Source of the DNA: Propionibacteriaceae bacterium
Lineage (GTDB): Bacteria > Actinomycetota > Actinomycetes > Propionibacteriales > Propionibacteriaceae
DNA length: 64,000 nucleotides
Direction of reading: 5' to 3'
NCBI GenBank assembly: GCA_031272505.1
Contig: JAISTQ010000001.1
Coordinates: 1 to 64,000 of the forward strand
Part shown: piece by piece, positions 26,537 to 62,398 of the stretch
How positions within the stretch are numbered: position 1 is the stretch's first letter
Layout of the letters: each line of letters begins with the position of its first letter
The notes under the pieces: model-generated
The model's database searches: none
What the model was told of the DNA's origin: nothing
The model's input: only the letters and a program-made list of their open reading frames with translations
Translations under genes and position numbers: made by a program

Positions 26537-29500
26537 CTACAGATCGACGGCGGAGGTGCAGCGGGAGATGACGGCGGGGTCGTGGGTGATGATGAGGGCG
26601 GGGTGGTGGGCGGTGCGGTGCCAGATGTCGTCGAGGATGGCGGCGGAGGTGAGAGAGTCGAGGTGTTCGGTGGGTTCGTCGAGGATCCAGACTTGGTAAT
26701 CGCCGACGAGAAGGCGGGCGAGGGCGAGACGGCGGGATTCGCCGCCGGAGAGGGGTTGGCCGGTGTCGCCGACGACCAGCGCGGGATCGAGGTCGGGAAG
26801 GCCAGCCTCGACGAGGGCGGCTTGGATCTCGGCGTCGGTAGCGTCGCGTTTGCCAATGCGGATGTTCTCGGCCACAGTGGTGCCGAAGATGTGCGCGTCC
26901 TGGGAGAGGTAGCCCAGCGAGCCGTCAACCTCGTAGCTGCCCGCGAGCGGCGGGATCATGCCCAGCAGCGTGGTGGCGATGGTGGTCTTGCCGACGCCGG
27001 AGCGGCCGGTGAGCGCGACCGTCTCGCCAGGGTGGACTTGCAGGCTGAGGTGCTCCACCAGCGGGGTTGGCGCGCTGTCAGCGGCCGTGGGCGGCCAACC
27101 GACGGCGAGATCACGCAACGTGAGCGCGGGGGCAGCCTGGGTGTGGGTGTCGGGTTTGTCGCCGGAGCCGACCGGCGGCGCGTCGATCAACTCTTGGACG
27201 CGGGCCAAGGCGGCGCGGGTGGAGGTGAACGTCTGCGCGGCCGACGTCAAGACGGTGAGTGACTCATGCAGGGCCAGCGGCACCAGCACCAAGACGGCGA
27301 GCATGGTGCGATCCAGGTTGCCGGCCAGCACCGCCTCCGAGCCGAACCAGAGGGCGCCGAGCACCGCCACCCCGGAGGCCAGCACCTGCATCGCGCCGGA
27401 GATGCCGCGTACCCAGGCGGAACGGGCCTCGTGGCGTTCCAGGGTGTCGTCCACCTCGGTGAACTTGGCCAGGTATTCAGCTTGGACGCCGTAGGCCAAC
27501 AGATCGGGAGCGGCGTACATCAGCTCGTTGAGATCGGCGGCCAACTCGCCGCGCAACTCGACGCTCTGCGCGTCTGCCTGTTTCGAGGCCCGCGAGGTGA
27601 GGATGGGGACGAGCAGGCCGGCGGCCAAGGCGGTGAGCAGCAGCGTCAGCCCGGAGGGCAGCGACCAGATGCAGATCAGCCCGGAGGAGACCAGGATCAC
27701 CAAGGATGCGGAGATGAACGGAATCCAGACGCGCACGATCAGGTTCGCGATGGCCTCGGCGTCGGTGACCGCGCGGTTCAGCAGGTCGCCGCGATCCCGG
27801 CCGAGCAGCGTGGTGCGGCTCAGCGCCTGGTAGAGCTTCAGCCGCAGGGCCGATTGCAGCCGCAGGGCGACGTCGTGACTATAGATCCGTTCCAGGTAGC
27901 GGAACACGCCGCGGGAGATGCCGAAGAAGCGGACCATCACCGCAGCCACCAAGAGGGCGCGCACCAGCGGGAGTTCGGCGGCGCGGGAGAGCAGCCACGC
28001 GGAGAAGCCCATCAGGGCCACGGACGCGAAGGTGGCGCAGCAGGCGAGCAGGATGGCGAAAGCGAGGCGCTTGCGGGAGTGGGGGACGGCGGTGAACAGG
28101 CGCGACAGGAGGGGGGTGGTGCTCGCTTCGCTCGCGCGTTCTGTGTCCTCCCAGATGCCTTCGGCATGGTCGGACTGGATCCCCGACCTTCGGTCGAGGA
28201 TGACGGGTTTGGGGTGATTCGAGGATGCCATGGACTCCCGGGCTTCGTCCGAGGATGACGGGGTGGGGGCGTCTGAGCGAAGCGAAGGCGAGGTGTGGGT
28301 GAGGTCGATGACGGTGTCGGCGGCGGCGATGACGGCGGGGCGGTGGGTGACGACGAGGGCGGAAACGCCGAGGGCGCGCAGCGAGGCCAGGGTGGCGGCC
28401 TCGGAGTCGGCGTCCAGGCCGGCGGTGGGCTCGTCCATGATCAGCAGGGTGGCGCGGCCCAGGGTGACGCGGAGCACCGCGCGGGCGATGGCGATGCGAC
28501 GGGTTTCGCCGGCGGAGACTCCGGCCCCGTTGGAGCCGATCAGGTGGTCCAGCTCGATCTCGGGAGCCCCGGCGGCGTCCAGCGCCTCGCGGACCGCGCG
28601 ATCCGTGGCGTCGGGGAAGCCGAGCCGGACGTTGTCGGCCACCGTGCCGCAGACCAGGCGCGGGGCCTGGCCCACGTACGCGAGTTTGGCCCGCCAGGCG
28701 TCCCAATCGGTGACCGGCTGGCCAGCGGAGCAAATGGCGCCGCTGCTGGGCGTCAAGAATCCGAGCACCGCGTTGAGCAAAGTGGTCTTGCCGCATCCCG
28801 AGGGGCCGATCAAGGCCACCAGTTGCCCTTTGGCGATGGCAAATGACGTGGGCGGCAACGCGGGCGCATCCGCGCCAGGATAGGTGTGGCTCAAACCCAC
28901 CACGGCGAGCGGGGCAGCGGTGGCGGGGGCGGGCGTGGCTTCGGGAGCGGGGACGGCACCGGTTTCGGCGTCAAGGTAGGCGAAAGCGGTCTCCGCGGCG
29001 GTGCTGCCGTTCACCGAATCGTGGAAGTGGGTGCCGACCGCGCGGACCGGCGCGTAGGCCTCCGGGGCGATCACCAAGATGAAGAGCGCGGAGGCGAGAT
29101 CCATGTCGCCATAGAGGACGCGGAAGCCGATAGTGACCGCGATCACCGCCACCGAGAGGGTGGCGAGCAGTTCCAGCGTCAACGCCGAGAGGAAGGAGAT
29201 GCGCAGGGTGGCCAGCGTCTCCTTGCGGTGCGCCTCCTCGGATTTCTCCAGCCCCTTGAGTTGCGCCTGCGCCCGGCCGAACGCCTGCAGCGTGGGCAGG
29301 CCCGCGATCAGGTCGGAGAAGTGGTTTGCGAGCCGCAGTTGGATGCGCCAGCGCTTTTCGGTGCGACGGCGGGTGGTCCAGCCCACCAGCATCATGAACA
29401 CCGGGATCAGCGGGATGGTGACCAGCATGATCAGCGCGCTGGTGACGTCCGAGAAGAAGGCGAAGGCGACGACGATGATCGGCACGGTCGCGGCCAAGCC

Positions 29501-30028
29501 CAGTTGCGGCAGGTACTTCGCGAAGTACGCGTCGAGGGCGTCCAGGCCCTGAGTGATGAGAGTCACCAAGCTGGCGGGGGAAAAGGTGCTCGCTGCGCTC
29601 GCGCGTTCTTGGTTCGTCGGAGTGCTTCGCTCCTCCGAACTGGATCCCCGAGCCTGCGGCTCGAGGATGACGGCTTGGGGGGGTGGCGGTGGGATGGGGG
29701 TGTGGGCGGCTTTGGTGGCGATGTCGGCGCGGAGTTGTTGTTTGACTTTGGCGCTGGAGCGGTGGCCGAGCCATTCGCTGGCCCAGGCGAGGGCGGCTTT
29801 GGCGGCGAAGATGAGGGCGATGACGACGATGGCGGTGAGCAGCGGCAAGGTGCCCGCCGAGCCGTCAATCGGCCGGAAGTTGAAGACGTCCGTCACCGCT
29901 TCCGAGAGCAGCTTGGCCTGGATGAGCGTCAAAGCGGCGGTACACAGGCCGACGGCGACCCCGGCCACCATAAAGCTCCTGGTCGCACGGGATCGCCGTA
30001 GCAGGTTTGCGTTCACCGGCCCGGCCAT
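26537..30028 (-). CDS. cydDC: Fused CydD-CydC ABC transporter for cytochrome bd assembly
   Basis: A 1163-residue fusion of two ABC exporter half-transporters needed to assemble bd oxidase (family role: cysteine/glutathione or heme export). CydD: membrane domain about 1-350, Walker A GPSGCGKTT near 415, signature VSAGETRR near 505. CydC: membrane domain about 640-930, Walker A GRSGVGKTT near 1012, signature LSGGESRR and LDEPTEHLD. Residues about 118-147 and 579-636 are encoded by copies of the dispersed repeat, inserted in frame: the first between CydD membrane helices, the second forming the linker. Start ATG follows a G-rich stretch (GGGGGGTGGG). It follows cydA and cydB on the same strand after 265 bases with no gene (only a GGATAC/GTATCC hairpin at 30192-30208). 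Confidence 0.93.
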   Translation of the reverse strand: MAGPVNANLLRRSRATRSFMVAGVAVGLCTAALTLIQAKLLSEAVTDVFNFRPIDGSAGTLPLLTAIVVIALIFAAKAALAWASEWLGHRSSAKVKQQLRADIATKAAHTPIPPPPPQAVILEPQARGSSSEERSTPTNQERASAASTFSPASLVTLITQGLDALDAYFAKYLPQLGLAATVPIIVVAFAFFSDVTSALIMLVTIPLIPVFMMLVGWTTRRRTEKRWRIQLRLANHFSDLIAGLPTLQAFGRAQAQLKGLEKSEEAHRKETLATLRISFLSALTLELLATLSVAVIAVTIGFRVLYGDMDLASALFILVIAPEAYAPVRAVGTHFHDSVNGSTAAETAFAYLDAETGAVPAPEATPAPATAAPLAVVGLSHTYPGADAPALPPTSFAIAKGQLVALIGPSGCGKTTLLNAVLGFLTPSSGAICSAGQPVTDWDAWRAKLAYVGQAPRLVCGTVADNVRLGFPDATDRAVREALDAAGAPEIELDHLIGSNGAGVSAGETRRIAIARAVLRVTLGRATLLIMDEPTAGLDADSEAATLASLRALGVSALVVTHRPAVIAAADTVIDLTHTSPSLRSDAPTPSSSDEARESMASSNHPKPVILDRRSGIQSDHAEGIWEDTERASEASTTPLLSRLFTAVPHSRKRLAFAILLACCATFASVALMGFSAWLLSRAAELPLVRALLVAAVMVRFFGISRGVFRYLERIYSHDVALRLQSALRLKLYQALSRTTLLGRDRGDLLNRAVTDAEAIANLIVRVWIPFISASLVILVSSGLICIWSLPSGLTLLLTALAAGLLVPILTSRASKQADAQSVELRGELAADLNELMYAAPDLLAYGVQAEYLAKFTEVDDTLERHEARSAWVRGISGAMQVLASGVAVLGALWFGSEAVLAGNLDRTMLAVLVLVPLALHESLTVLTSAAQTFTSTRAALARVQELIDAPPVGSGDKPDTHTQAAPALTLRDLAVGWPPTAADSAPTPLVEHLSLQVHPGETVALTGRSGVGKTTIATTLLGMIPPLAGSYEVDGSLGYLSQDAHIFGTTVAENIRIGKRDATDAEIQAALVEAGLPDLDPALVVGDTGQPLSGGESRRLALARLLVGDYQVWILDEPTEHLDSLTSAAILDDIWHRTAHHPALIITHDPAVISRCTSAVDL
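28119..28207 (+). repeat. Dispersed repeat, copy A1, inside cydDC
   Basis: Three palindromic segments in the family order: GCTCGCTTCGCTCGCG, then CAGATGCCTTCGGCAT, then GGATCCCCGACCTTCGGTCG followed by AGGATGACGG. It is translated in the CydDC linker as PVILDRRSGIQSDHAEG, IWEDTERASEAST. The open frame runs through the entire copy with no stop. Confidence 0.75.
28230..28292 (+). repeat. Dispersed repeat, degenerate copy A2, inside cydDC
   Basis: GGACTCCCGGGCTTCGTCCG followed by AGGATGACGGGG matches the right-hand hairpin of the family with several changes, and GAGCGAAGCGAAGG beyond it resembles the reversed left end of another copy. Translated as part of the linker (PSSSDEARESMASS). Confidence 0.5.
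29586..29673 (+). repeat. Dispersed repeat, copy B, inside the CydD membrane domain
   Basis: TGCTCGCTGCGCTCGCGCG, then GTCGGAGTGCTTCGCTCCTC, then GGATCCCCGAGCCTGCGGCT and CGAGGATGACGG. It is translated in the same frame and direction as copy A1, as AVILEPQARGSSSEERS, TPTNQERASAAST. Both peptides share VIL-[DE] and ERAS-[EA]-AST. Confidence 0.75.
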
Positions 30029-30293: not shown

Positions 30294-31397
30294 CTACGCG
30301 GCAGCGAGGGCATCATCTGGAATGTTCTTCACCGAAATCGGACGACGGAACACCCAGTAAGCCCAAATAGTGTAGGCAAGCACAATCGGTACCATGATCA
30401 ACGCGGCCACCAGGGCGATCGTCAAGGTGCCATCCGTCGAAGCGGCGGTGAACACATTGATGCCCGGCACATCCGCGCCGCCGACATCCCGGAAGCCGAG
30501 GCCCGGCAGCATCTTCAGGAAGATGCCCAGCGCGACCAGCAGCCAAGTGAGCGACGTCATGATGAAGGCCAAGCCCCTGCCGATGGTGAGCCAAGAGACG
30601 ATCAACGCCACGGCGGCCAGCACCAGCAGGATCCACGACAAGCCGGACAGGAACAGCGGCGAGTACGCCAGATTCTGCCAGACCAGGAACGCCGCGCCGC
30701 CCACAATCGCGACCGCGCCGAGGATCTTCGCCAAGCCCTTGGCGCGTTCCTGAATCTCGCCCCGAGTCTTCAAGGTGAGATAGAGCAGGCCATGGTAGAG
30801 GCAAAGCACCACGACGACGATGCCGCCGAGCAGGCCGAACGGGCTGAACAGCTCCCAGAAATAGGGAGTGACGCCGACGTTCGCCGCGTCAGAGGCGATC
30901 ACGTAGAGCGAGGCGTTGTTCGGATCGGTGACCACCGGCAGGCCGATGATGAAGTTCGCGAAACCGACGCCGAAGACCAGCGGCACCAAGAAGGAACCGA
31001 TGGCGGCGCACCAATCAAACACGGCCCGCCACTTGGTGTCCGGGCGCTTCGAGCGATACTCGAAGGAGACGCCGCGGATGATCAGGCCGACCAGCACCAG
31101 GAACAGCGGCAGGTACAGGCCCGAGAACAAAGTGGCGTACCAGGCTGGGAAGGCCAGGAACATGGCACCACCTGCGGTGAGCAGCCACACCTCGTTTCCA
31201 TCCCAGACCGGGCCGATGGAGTTGATCAGGACGCGCTTCTCCTTCTCGTTTTTGCCGAGGAAGGGGATCAGCATCGCCACGCCGTAATCAAAGCCCTCCA
31301 AGACCAGGTAACCGATCCAGAGAACTGCGACGAGCAAGAACCAGACGACGGCAAGCACCGACGGGATCTCAGTCGGAAGGTTGAATGAGAAATTCAT
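30294..31397 (-). CDS. cydB: Cytochrome bd ubiquinol/menaquinol oxidase subunit II
   Basis: A 367-residue membrane subunit of the bd-type terminal oxidase, which passes electrons from quinol to O2 with high affinity. Around eight or nine membrane helices are visible; the N-terminal half contains GYLVLEGFDYGVAML and GNEVWLLTAGGAMFLAFP, both CydB hallmarks. It starts 17 bases after the cydA stop, so the two are cotranscribed; cydDC follows. Confidence 0.95.
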   Translation of the reverse strand: MNFSFNLPTEIPSVLAVVWFLLVAVLWIGYLVLEGFDYGVAMLIPFLGKNEKEKRVLINSIGPVWDGNEVWLLTAGGAMFLAFPAWYATLFSGLYLPLFLVLVGLIIRGVSFEYRSKRPDTKWRAVFDWCAAIGSFLVPLVFGVGFANFIIGLPVVTDPNNASLYVIASDAANVGVTPYFWELFSPFGLLGGIVVVVLCLYHGLLYLTLKTRGEIQERAKGLAKILGAVAIVGGAAFLVWQNLAYSPLFLSGLSWILLVLAAVALIVSWLTIGRGLAFIMTSLTWLLVALGIFLKMLPGLGFRDVGGADVPGINVFTAASTDGTLTIALVAALIMVPIVLAYTIWAYWVFRRPISVKNIPDDALAAA

Positions 31398-31414: not shown

Positions 31415-32923
31415 CTAGTATGCGAAGCTCAAGGGAGCGTCCTCGTCGGTGGAGACTTGCGGCTCCTCGACGACGGGCAGACCCGACTTGATGGTCTTCA
31501 AGAACAGCCCCACCTCCACTACGGCGCCAACGCCGTAGATGACGGTGTAGAGCACTAGGGAGAGGCCCACCTCCAGGGCGGTGACGCCAGGCGACACCGC
31601 CGATGCGGTAGGCAACACCCCATTGACGATCCAGGGCTGACGGCCGATCTCGGTGACCAGCCAGCCGAAGGAACCGGCGAACAGCGGGAAGAGCGGGGCG
31701 ATGACCATCGCCAGCGTCCAACCCTTGCCGCCCTTCGGGAGCTTGCCCTTGCCCGTCTTCACCAGCGCGATGATCGCGACGATGAGAGCCAGGAAGCCCA
31801 AGCCGATCATGATGCGGAAGGAGTAGAAGGTCGTCAAGATGTCCGGCACGTAACCAGCGGCGGCAAGTTGTGAGGAGTACTGCTGTAACAGCCCCGCATC
31901 CTTGGCCCCCTGTGCCAACTGGTTGTTCGGATCGACCAACTCGCCATTCTGATAAGCGGCCATCAACTCGTTGAAGCCCTTCACCTCGCCGTTCTCGGTG
32001 CCGGCCAGCAGGCCGAGCACGCCCGGAACTTCGATGGCGGTGGAGACCCCGCCGCTGCCGTCTGGCCAGGCCAGTACCGCGAACGGGGCGTTCTGCACGG
32101 TGGTGCTGACGGCTTCCGTGGCGGCCATCTTGATCGGCTGCAACTCCACCATGATCTTGCCTTGGATATCACCGGTGAAGAAGGAGCCGCAGGTGGCCAC
32201 GATCAGCGTCCATGCGCCAAGCTTCAGCGCGAAGCGGTGCGCGTCAATGTCTTTGGCGATCTGCCCATCGGGCTCGGCGCCGTTCAGTTGCTTGTTCGCC
32301 TTCGCCAGCGACCAGCCCGCCACCCCCAGCAGAATGCCGCCAGCCGTCATGAACGCACCGAAGATTACGTGCGGCCAGGTGACCAGCGCCACTGGGTTGG
32401 TAAGTACAGCGCCAAAATCGCTCATCTCCGCTCTACCCGTGGTGGGGTTGTAGACGGCGCCCACTGGATTCTGCATCCAGGAGTTGGCGATGAGAATGAA
32501 GATCGAAGAGATCAACGTGCCGATGGAGCCGAGCCAGATCGTCGCCAGGTGGACTTTCTTGGGGAGCTTGTCCCACCCGAAGATCCACATACCGAGGAAG
32601 ACTGACTCCAGGAAGAAGGAGATGAGAGCCTCCAGCGCGAGGGGCGCGCCGAAGATGTCCCCAACGAAGCGTGAGTATTCGCTCCAGTTCATGCCGAACT
32701 GGAACTCTTGGACAATACCGGTTACCACACCCATCGCGAAGTTGATCAGGAAGAGCTTTCCGAACAGCTTCGTCAGACGTAGGTACCGCTCGTTGCCGGT
32801 ACGGACCCATAACGTCTGCAGGACCGCCACCAACAGCGACAGTGCGATGGTGATCGGTACGAAGAAGAAGTGGTAGACCGTAGTAATGCCAAATTGCCAT
32901 CTGGCAAGAGTTTCTGCAGTCAT
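31415..32923 (-). CDS. cydA: Cytochrome bd quinol oxidase subunit I
   Basis: The heme-bearing catalytic subunit (502 residues). The start WQFGITTVYHFFFVPITIAL carries the first heme-ligand His, and GRQPWIVNGVLPTASAVSP is the classic motif near the C-terminus. The Q-loop is of the short form. The ATG lies six bases after TAAGTT, with TTGCGA 18 bases further upstream as a candidate -35, indicating a leaderless start of the cydAB-cydDC operon. With PFOR nearby, this fits growth at low oxygen. Confidence 0.96.
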   Translation of the reverse strand: MTAETLARWQFGITTVYHFFFVPITIALSLLVAVLQTLWVRTGNERYLRLTKLFGKLFLINFAMGVVTGIVQEFQFGMNWSEYSRFVGDIFGAPLALEALISFFLESVFLGMWIFGWDKLPKKVHLATIWLGSIGTLISSIFILIANSWMQNPVGAVYNPTTGRAEMSDFGAVLTNPVALVTWPHVIFGAFMTAGGILLGVAGWSLAKANKQLNGAEPDGQIAKDIDAHRFALKLGAWTLIVATCGSFFTGDIQGKIMVELQPIKMAATEAVSTTVQNAPFAVLAWPDGSGGVSTAIEVPGVLGLLAGTENGEVKGFNELMAAYQNGELVDPNNQLAQGAKDAGLLQQYSSQLAAAGYVPDILTTFYSFRIMIGLGFLALIVAIIALVKTGKGKLPKGGKGWTLAMVIAPLFPLFAGSFGWLVTEIGRQPWIVNGVLPTASAVSPGVTALEVGLSLVLYTVIYGVGAVVEVGLFLKTIKSGLPVVEEPQVSTDEDAPLSFAY

Positions 32924-36692: not shown

Positions 36693-36718
36693 TGAATGAC
36701 CAGCCTACTACTTAATTG

Positions 36719-36804
36719 TGCTCACTACGTTCGCACGTATTGTGTTCGTCGGAGTGCCTTCGGCTTCCTCCTCACTGGTTCCCCGACCTTCGGTCGAGGA
36801 TGAC
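36719..36804 (+). repeat. Dispersed repeat, copy C1
   Basis: TGCTCACTACGTTCGCACG, then GTCGGAGTGCCTTCGGCTTC with CTCC, then TTCCCCGACCTTCGGTCGAG and GATGACG. Same order of hairpins as copies A1, B and D. It forms an inverted pair with C2 between the ABC exporter and the signal peptidase genes. Confidence 0.75.
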
Positions 36805-36823
36805 GAATCCTTGGTGTCTATTT

Positions 36824-36910
36824 TCCGTCATCCTCGAGCCGCAGGCTCGGGGATCCAGTGAGCGACGCGCGTAGCGCTTGGAGCGAACAAAGAGCGCGGA
36901 AGCGAAGCGA
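36824..36910 (-). repeat. Dispersed repeat, copy C2 (inverted relative to C1)
   Basis: On the minus strand it reads TCGCTTCGCTTCCGCG, GTTCGCTCCAAGCGCTACGC, CACTGGATCCCCGAGCC and TGCGGCTCGAGGATGAC, matching the family. The 36693-36928 gap between genes is filled almost entirely by C1 and C2. Confidence 0.75.
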
Positions 36911-36928
36911 CCACCGCGACGGAACCCG

Positions 36929-62274: not shown

Positions 62275-62295
62275 GTGTGCCAGCCTCCGGAATTG

Positions 62296-62383
62296 TCCTC
62301 GCTTCGCTCGGGCACCCTTGGTTCGTCGGAGTGCCTCCGGCTTCCTCCTCACTGGATTCCCAGCCTTCGGCTGAGAATGACGG
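62296..62383 (+). repeat. Dispersed repeat, copy D
   Basis: TCCTCGCTTCGCTCGGG, then GTCGGAGTGCCTCCGGCTTC with CTCC, then GGATTCCCAGCCTTCGGCTG and AGAATGACGGC. All three hairpins of the family are present. It fills most of the 136-base gap between the OsmC gene and yigZ. Confidence 0.75.
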
Positions 62384-62398
62384 CTGGTGGGGAGCGGG

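Follow-up and report, generated by a model that had tools for sequence, protein, structure and literature searches.

A dispersed, modular palindromic repeat lies in frame in CydD and in other protein genes of a Propionibacteriaceae genome

The cydDC locus

The window, i.e., the whole 64-kb stretch of DNA analyzed here, is part of contig C33 of a Propionibacteriaceae draft genome (2.23 Mb, 98% complete, 67 contigs). It carries an open reading frame (ORF) for a fused CydD-CydC ABC transporter that contains several copies of a dispersed repeat, while further copies lie between genes of the same window.

26537..30028, minus strand: cydDC, ORF for a fused CydD-CydC ABC transporter, 1163 aa, open throughout, with two ABC_tran and two ABC_membrane stretches
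29579..29692 (approximate), minus strand: region that homologues lack, codons 113-150 (PPPPPQ, then the repeat-coded AVILEPQARGSSSEERSTPTNQERASAASTF, then S), net gain of 33-34 residues
29584..29672, minus strand: copy B of the repeat, 89 bp, no internal module, in sense orientation relative to cydDC
29669..29672, minus strand: unpaired CGTC tag of copy B, before hairpin H1
29644..29668, minus strand: head hairpin H1 of copy B, 11-bp stem and 3-nt loop, then the CCA tail
29612..29640, minus strand: hairpin H2 of copy B, outer stem GTTCG...CGAAC
29586..29604, minus strand: hairpin H3 of copy B, GCGC-GAGCGCAGCGA-GCAC, with outer pairs that covary across the repeat family
28117..28205, minus strand: second full in-frame repeat copy, in the variable CydD-CydC linker, codons ~608-638
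28231..28260, minus strand: degenerate solo CGTC head with one mismatch, in the CydD-CydC linker, in-frame reading PSSSDEARESM
30294..31397, minus strand: putative cydB-like ORF upstream of cydDC, same direction, judged from its translation
31415..32923, minus strand: putative cydA-like ORF upstream of cydDC, same direction, likewise judged from its translation
36716..36805, minus strand: repeat copy between genes, left member of a head-to-head pair
36826..36916, plus strand: repeat copy between genes, right member of that pair, after a 20-bp spacer
62293..62382, minus strand: repeat copy between genes

The initial annotation had claimed that a palindromic repeat is inserted in frame in CydD, and the cydDC ORF indeed stays open through copy B, the in-frame reading of which is AVILEPQARGSSSEERSTPTNQERASAASTF. 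The C-rich flank upstream of copy B, read as PPPPPQ, is part of the net insert. As read from the translation, the Walker A/B motifs of CydDC are present and the long ORF is intact. The annotation had also placed all other copies between genes. This holds for those at 36.7-36.9 and 62.3 kb, of which the two at 36.7 and 36.8 kb form one head-to-head inverted pair, but is incomplete, since much of the variable CydD-CydC linker consists of the second full copy and the solo head, and other genes carry copies as well. The CydD-CydC linker of one relative (L069) contains a different tandem peptide repeat, DDEFGMAQ/DDELGMAR; the linker may therefore often take up repeats.

The CydD insert compared with homologues

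Codons 85-175 of cydDC encode 91 residues, compared with 57-60 in all 26 aligned homologue rows, a few of which represent the same genome entered twice. The insert thus amounts to about 33-34 residues net, and its peptide is absent from all 26 rows. The closest named CydDC relatives are Propionibacteriaceae, several of them metagenome assemblies. In an alignment with CydD of E. coli (7zd5), which also lacks the peptide, query residues 63-104 pair with 62-103, a first aligned piece that is weak by itself, and query residues from 152 onward pair with those from 120 onward, so that 47 residues stand against 16, an excess of 31.

An AlphaFold2 model of the CydD half (27 sequences, mean pLDDT of 85) contains helices at 60-109 and 151-193 with pLDDT mostly of 89-97, between which the insert is mostly coil with pLDDT of 52-64. 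Consistent with the inter-helix position assigned by the initial annotation, the insert lies between the second and third membrane helices. In ABC exporters of the CydD class, the cytoplasmic tip between transmembrane helices 2 and 3 carries the first coupling helix, and by analogy with these exporters, from which the membrane side is taken, the insert would be placed at this cytoplasmic tip. An empty site at the DNA level was not found for the cydDC insert among relatives, the nearest of which are only ~50-59% identical in CydDC.

A structured and modular repeat family

Copy B is ~80% identical to the copies at 36718-36805, 36825-36915 and 62295-62385 and has 49 BLASTN matches in the genome. 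A covariance model yields 139 matches in the same genome at E ≤ 0.01, which merge into 107 clusters, and scores copy B at 90.8 bits. Most copies lie between genes, only ~8 of the 107 clusters being in genes. The initial annotation had made its insertion model depend on the repeat recurring elsewhere in the genome and on relatives not sharing the peptide, and both were found to be the case.

When 26 copies were aligned over 95 columns, a three-hairpin structure paired 88.8% of the cells. Of the 28 pairs, 14 had changed on both sides in a compensatory manner, and the covariation score was 0.236, compared with 0.114 ± 0.009 in shuffled controls; shifting the partners abolished the signal. The middle hairpin, which has several variants, is the least regular (72% paired). 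In H3 (alignment A1, columns 74-93), the core GAGCG-AAGCGA hardly varies and might form tandem G-A pairs, whereas the outer pair 77-90 covaries freely (UA 12, CG 10, GC 4). The head hairpin consists of CGTC, an AT-initial stem of 10-11 bp with a 3-nt loop, and CCA, which follows the stem in most copies. CGTC is invariant and outside the stem in all 26 aligned copies; as these were cropped at CGTC, the untrimmed listing of 81 copies is the fairer basis for its constancy. The first two stem pairs, A-T and T-A (columns 5-29 and 6-28), are paired in 25 and 26 of the 26 copies, respectively. The head motif occurs 90 times in the genome when up to three mismatches are allowed. Its expected count in shuffled windows is 0, which together with the covariation excludes a chance origin of the repeat.

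The repeat has a modular build, in which a CGTC-tagged REP head is followed by zero to two internal modules of ~75 bp and a two-hairpin tail; elements with 0, 1 and 2 internal modules are about 90, 165 and 240 bp long, respectively. Sixteen elements have one or two such extra modules between head and tail, so the length of roughly 90 bp given initially describes copy B but not a fixed unit. A conserved stretch (like AAGTCTCCCGGCACCCC..TGGC) upstream of the CGTC head in a subset of copies (e.g., C11:9798, C3:38622 and C6:1240) is perhaps another module. Neighboring elements within 150 bp form 21 head-to-head pairs and one tail-to-tail pair. Most of the 18 head-to-tail pairs represent a single B-containing element seen at its two ends. 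In seven clusters the flanks are coding on opposite strands, and each of these clusters is located between convergent genes. Contigs C36 and C39 (L120 and L121) both start with a nearly identical head-to-head repeat pair, and assembly breaks may therefore fall at repeats.

Target-site duplications are only hinted at by a weak signal (mean shared word of 4.09 versus 3.86 ± 0.09). Pairing of head with tail, as in MITE-type terminal inverted repeats, was not seen in the consensus structure, and a search for the RAYT transposase (PF01797) gave no match in this genome, while five control genomes matched. The covariance model had no matches in an initial set of 24 genomes of the same genus and 16 of the same order, nor in 197 other genomes of the family and 395 others across the phylum; as these large searches scored few candidates per genome under strict filters, weak or diverged relatives of the repeat could be missed. 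The head motif has at most one match in each relative, always with two or three mismatches, and none was found in viral contigs. An Rfam search of two stretches (E ≤ 1) gave matches only far below the gathering scores.

In-frame copies in other genes

All 107 clusters were subjected to a frame test based on the codon statistics of 240 bp on each side and blind to ORF lists. Nine clusters had same-strand coding on both sides, and the frame was kept in seven of them (dnaX, a tagF-like gene, cydDC twice, menE, menC and menD), compared with an expectation of one-third. The chance of at least seven in nine is ~0.008 when calculated by hand, for clusters that are partly dependent, as two lie in cydDC and three in one men locus. 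A cluster in feoB, just below the threshold of the test, is an eighth that keeps the frame. The repeat is thus found in frame inside at least seven protein genes, where it accounts for ~30 to 90 amino acids. Two of these genes are located as follows.

MenC: L182 4955-6166; insert at C54:67746-68020
DnaX: L128 2016-3962; repeat at C8:12661-12952

When MenC is aligned to the structure of an O-succinylbenzoate-CoA synthase (2opj), its residues 5-100 and 191-397 fall on the adjoining residues 7-102 and 102-302, which means that 90 residues are inserted right behind the KVKVA motif. This block consists of one B-containing and one simple copy, head to head, and the KxK motif and the downstream acidic residues are present in the translation. 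FeoB has 120 residues between its G domain and the next domain, where relatives have 87-102 and most have 88 (+32). At the insert sites, 84 residues of the tagF-like protein stand against 22 in TagF, and 81 of MenE against 39 in a homologue. In DnaX, most of the variable tau linker comes from the repeat, yet the linker is no longer than in homologues. The alignment of MenD is weaker around its insert.

The menE-menC-menD region with its preceding gap (L182, C54:64980-69610) contains four repeat clusters in ~4.6 kb and is a local hot spot. The menD gene is split into overlapping ORFs at L182 6163-6630 and 6623-7654 (overlap ATGACTAA), the second of which holds the repeat copy; it is possibly a pseudogene, a split gene or a sequence error, and some host genes thus need not be functional. 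An ORF with an NMT1 domain, first taken as an internal case, was excluded on the grounds that the coding frame differs between its flanks. Copies in SmpB, SerRS, ABC-F, kinase, AzlC, GT2 and MurJ ORFs were left uncounted because their positions, at the ends of ORFs or in extensions that do not align, may be outside the true genes.

The inserts within genes use several reading frames and both strands, from which it follows that no particular peptide is selected. The repeat copies have on average 3.52 of six frames open, compared with 3.44 ± 0.11 in shuffles of the same copies. As this openness does not exceed that of shuffles, the repeat is not specially built for translation, and the idea of an element built to be open-framed was rejected. 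With one-third of lengths permissible and ~0.59 of frames open, ~20% of random intragenic insertions should stay open, and about four-fifths should break the gene and be purged. The ~8 of 107 clusters in genes would fit a process in which insertion is random, harmful cases are lost and the survivors lie in loops and linkers.

Relation to known repeats

The head hairpin resembles those of the CGTC-tagged REP superfamily, which includes dRS3 of Neisseria and RPE-4 and RPE-6 of Rickettsia (Di Nocera et al., 2013; PMC3733652). Shared features are the unpaired CGTC tag, the AT-initial stem and the CCA tail, the predominance of head-to-head dimers (21 here) with tail-to-tail ones rare (one here), a mainly intergenic location with some copies in genes, and the lack of an associated tyrosine transposase (PMC3733652). 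The location between convergent genes is also favored by described REPs (PMC3733652). However, CGTC families 1-4 have stems of 8-9 bp and loops of 4-5 nt (PMC3733652), compared with 10-11 bp and 3 nt here, which places the repeat outside these four families, and a composite body of 90-240 bp is attached to its head. The CGTC REP paper does not mention Actinobacteria (PMC3733652). GTAG REPs with RAYT transposases are likewise palindromic, paired and mostly intergenic with some copies in genes, but the tag here is CGTC and a PF01797 protein was not found in the genome.

The modular plan resembles that of the streptococcal BOX elements, which in pneumococci are built as boxA-boxBn-boxC (PMC3049150). 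Both have an end-(internal)n-end arrangement with variable internal copy number, several hairpins and no transposase of their own; the likeness is one of architecture (0, 1 or 2 internal modules). One difference is that few intact genes with box modules have been reported for BOX (PMC3049150).

The comparison with Rickettsia palindromic elements (RPEs) made by the initial annotation is apt. RPEs are the classic parallel for in-frame insertion in conserved protein genes (Ogata, 2000; PMC10969869, PMC2229807), and the elements compared are both dispersed palindromic repeats found in frame in unrelated conserved genes, here also in dnaX, the tagF-like gene, menE, menC, menD and feoB. RPE-4 and RPE-6, as members of the CGTC-tagged superfamily, bring the two closer, a link made through the described tag class. 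The repeat described here departs from RPEs in host phylum and architecture. It lacks a single conserved frame or peptide, its open frames are not enriched, and only ~8 of 107 clusters lie in genes, compared with nearly half of RPEs reported within ORFs. Palindromic insertions that keep the frame were at first held to be a peculiarity of Rickettsia and were later found with REPs in several other bacteria (PMC3733652), so this kind of phenomenon is not new. In a limited literature search, we found no earlier case of an in-frame palindromic repeat in an actinomycete. What is new is the combination of a REP head with a BOX-like modular body, with stem and loop sizes outside the four CGTC families, and, within the literature searched, an actinobacterial host.

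Origin and persistence of the in-frame copies

The repeat is dispersed, conserved in structure and absent from the relatives searched; it leaves cydDC open, lies between helices of CydD and occurs in at least six other genes. We propose, with a probability of roughly 80%, that it is a non-autonomous element with a REP head, specific to this lineage, and that its copies within genes survive at sites where the reading frame and the position in a loop permit. Such a structured repeat would have multiplied in this Propionibacteriaceae genome, probably as a mobile element moved in trans, and one copy would have entered cydD at the cytoplasmic tip between transmembrane helices 2 and 3. As the length and frame of copy B left cydD open, it would be translated as a flexible loop of ~30 residues. 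The insert-bearing proteins are presumably made and still working, and the copies in genes may persist because frame and loop position are tolerable and not because the peptides are useful.

An alternative in which the CydD peptide is an ancient native loop with a coincidental likeness to the repeat DNA, or in which the repeat derives from cydD, has only the variability of the linker around the second copy in its favor; refuted by the dispersion in ~107 clusters, the covarying hairpins and the homologues without the peptide, it has a negligible chance of being correct. Mis-assembly at repeats, by which the repeat would have been stitched into cydDC, is very improbable. The genome is a draft, and the repeat does lie near the ends of contigs C36, C39, C28, C1 and C67, but the same gene continues in the same frame on both flanks in at least seven genes, and copies that differ by ~20% should not collapse. 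A repeat of 90 bp is also shorter than a typical read, which speaks against mis-assembly. The strong structure, and the position of the MenC insert right behind the KxK motif, a surprising place for tolerance, might suggest instead that inserts are removed from RNA or protein by splicing, bypass or processing, leaving a normal mature protein. Intron or intein features were not seen, however, no Rfam family was matched at gathering score, and several reading frames and both strands are in use, which makes such removal highly unlikely.

The copies within genes could also act mainly as RNA or DNA elements, whose hairpins in the mRNA of cydDC, the men genes or dnaX tune stability or translation and whose peptides are by-products kept by selection. 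The structure is fully kept even in genes, as the score of copy B illustrates, and the exclusive placement of the seven opposite-strand clusters between convergent genes suggests roles of intergenic copies at transcript ends; we nevertheless consider this reading unlikely, as the two orientations in genes would give no consistent RNA structure on the mRNA strand, the target genes are unrelated and most copies are intergenic. About as improbable is that the host genes are dying, i.e., that the repeat gathers in genes of respiration and menaquinone synthesis under relaxed selection and that openness is recent luck. The inserts are concentrated in cydDC and menC/D/E, and with menD in two ORFs at least one host gene may be decaying; against this stand the long intact ORFs with catalytic motifs in CydDC and MenC, the inserts in dnaX, feoB and the tagF-like gene and the frame kept in seven of nine clusters.

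The preferred reading of a non-autonomous element with tolerated intragenic copies has a bolder version, which we consider rather unlikely: a new class of modular REP-headed elements, moved by an unrecognised non-RAYT enzyme, may repeatedly become protein loops and linkers in one lineage. If so, a selfish repeat would supply new protein segments, among them the 90-residue block beside a catalytic motif of MenC and the greater part of the DnaX tau linker. A GC-rich actinobacterium with at least seven genes hit by a repeat absent from the relatives searched offers a clean natural experiment for telling whether such copies stem from a special coding element or are what remains after random insertion; the open-frame result favors the latter. 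The repeat family is also a place to seek the machinery that moves CGTC REPs.
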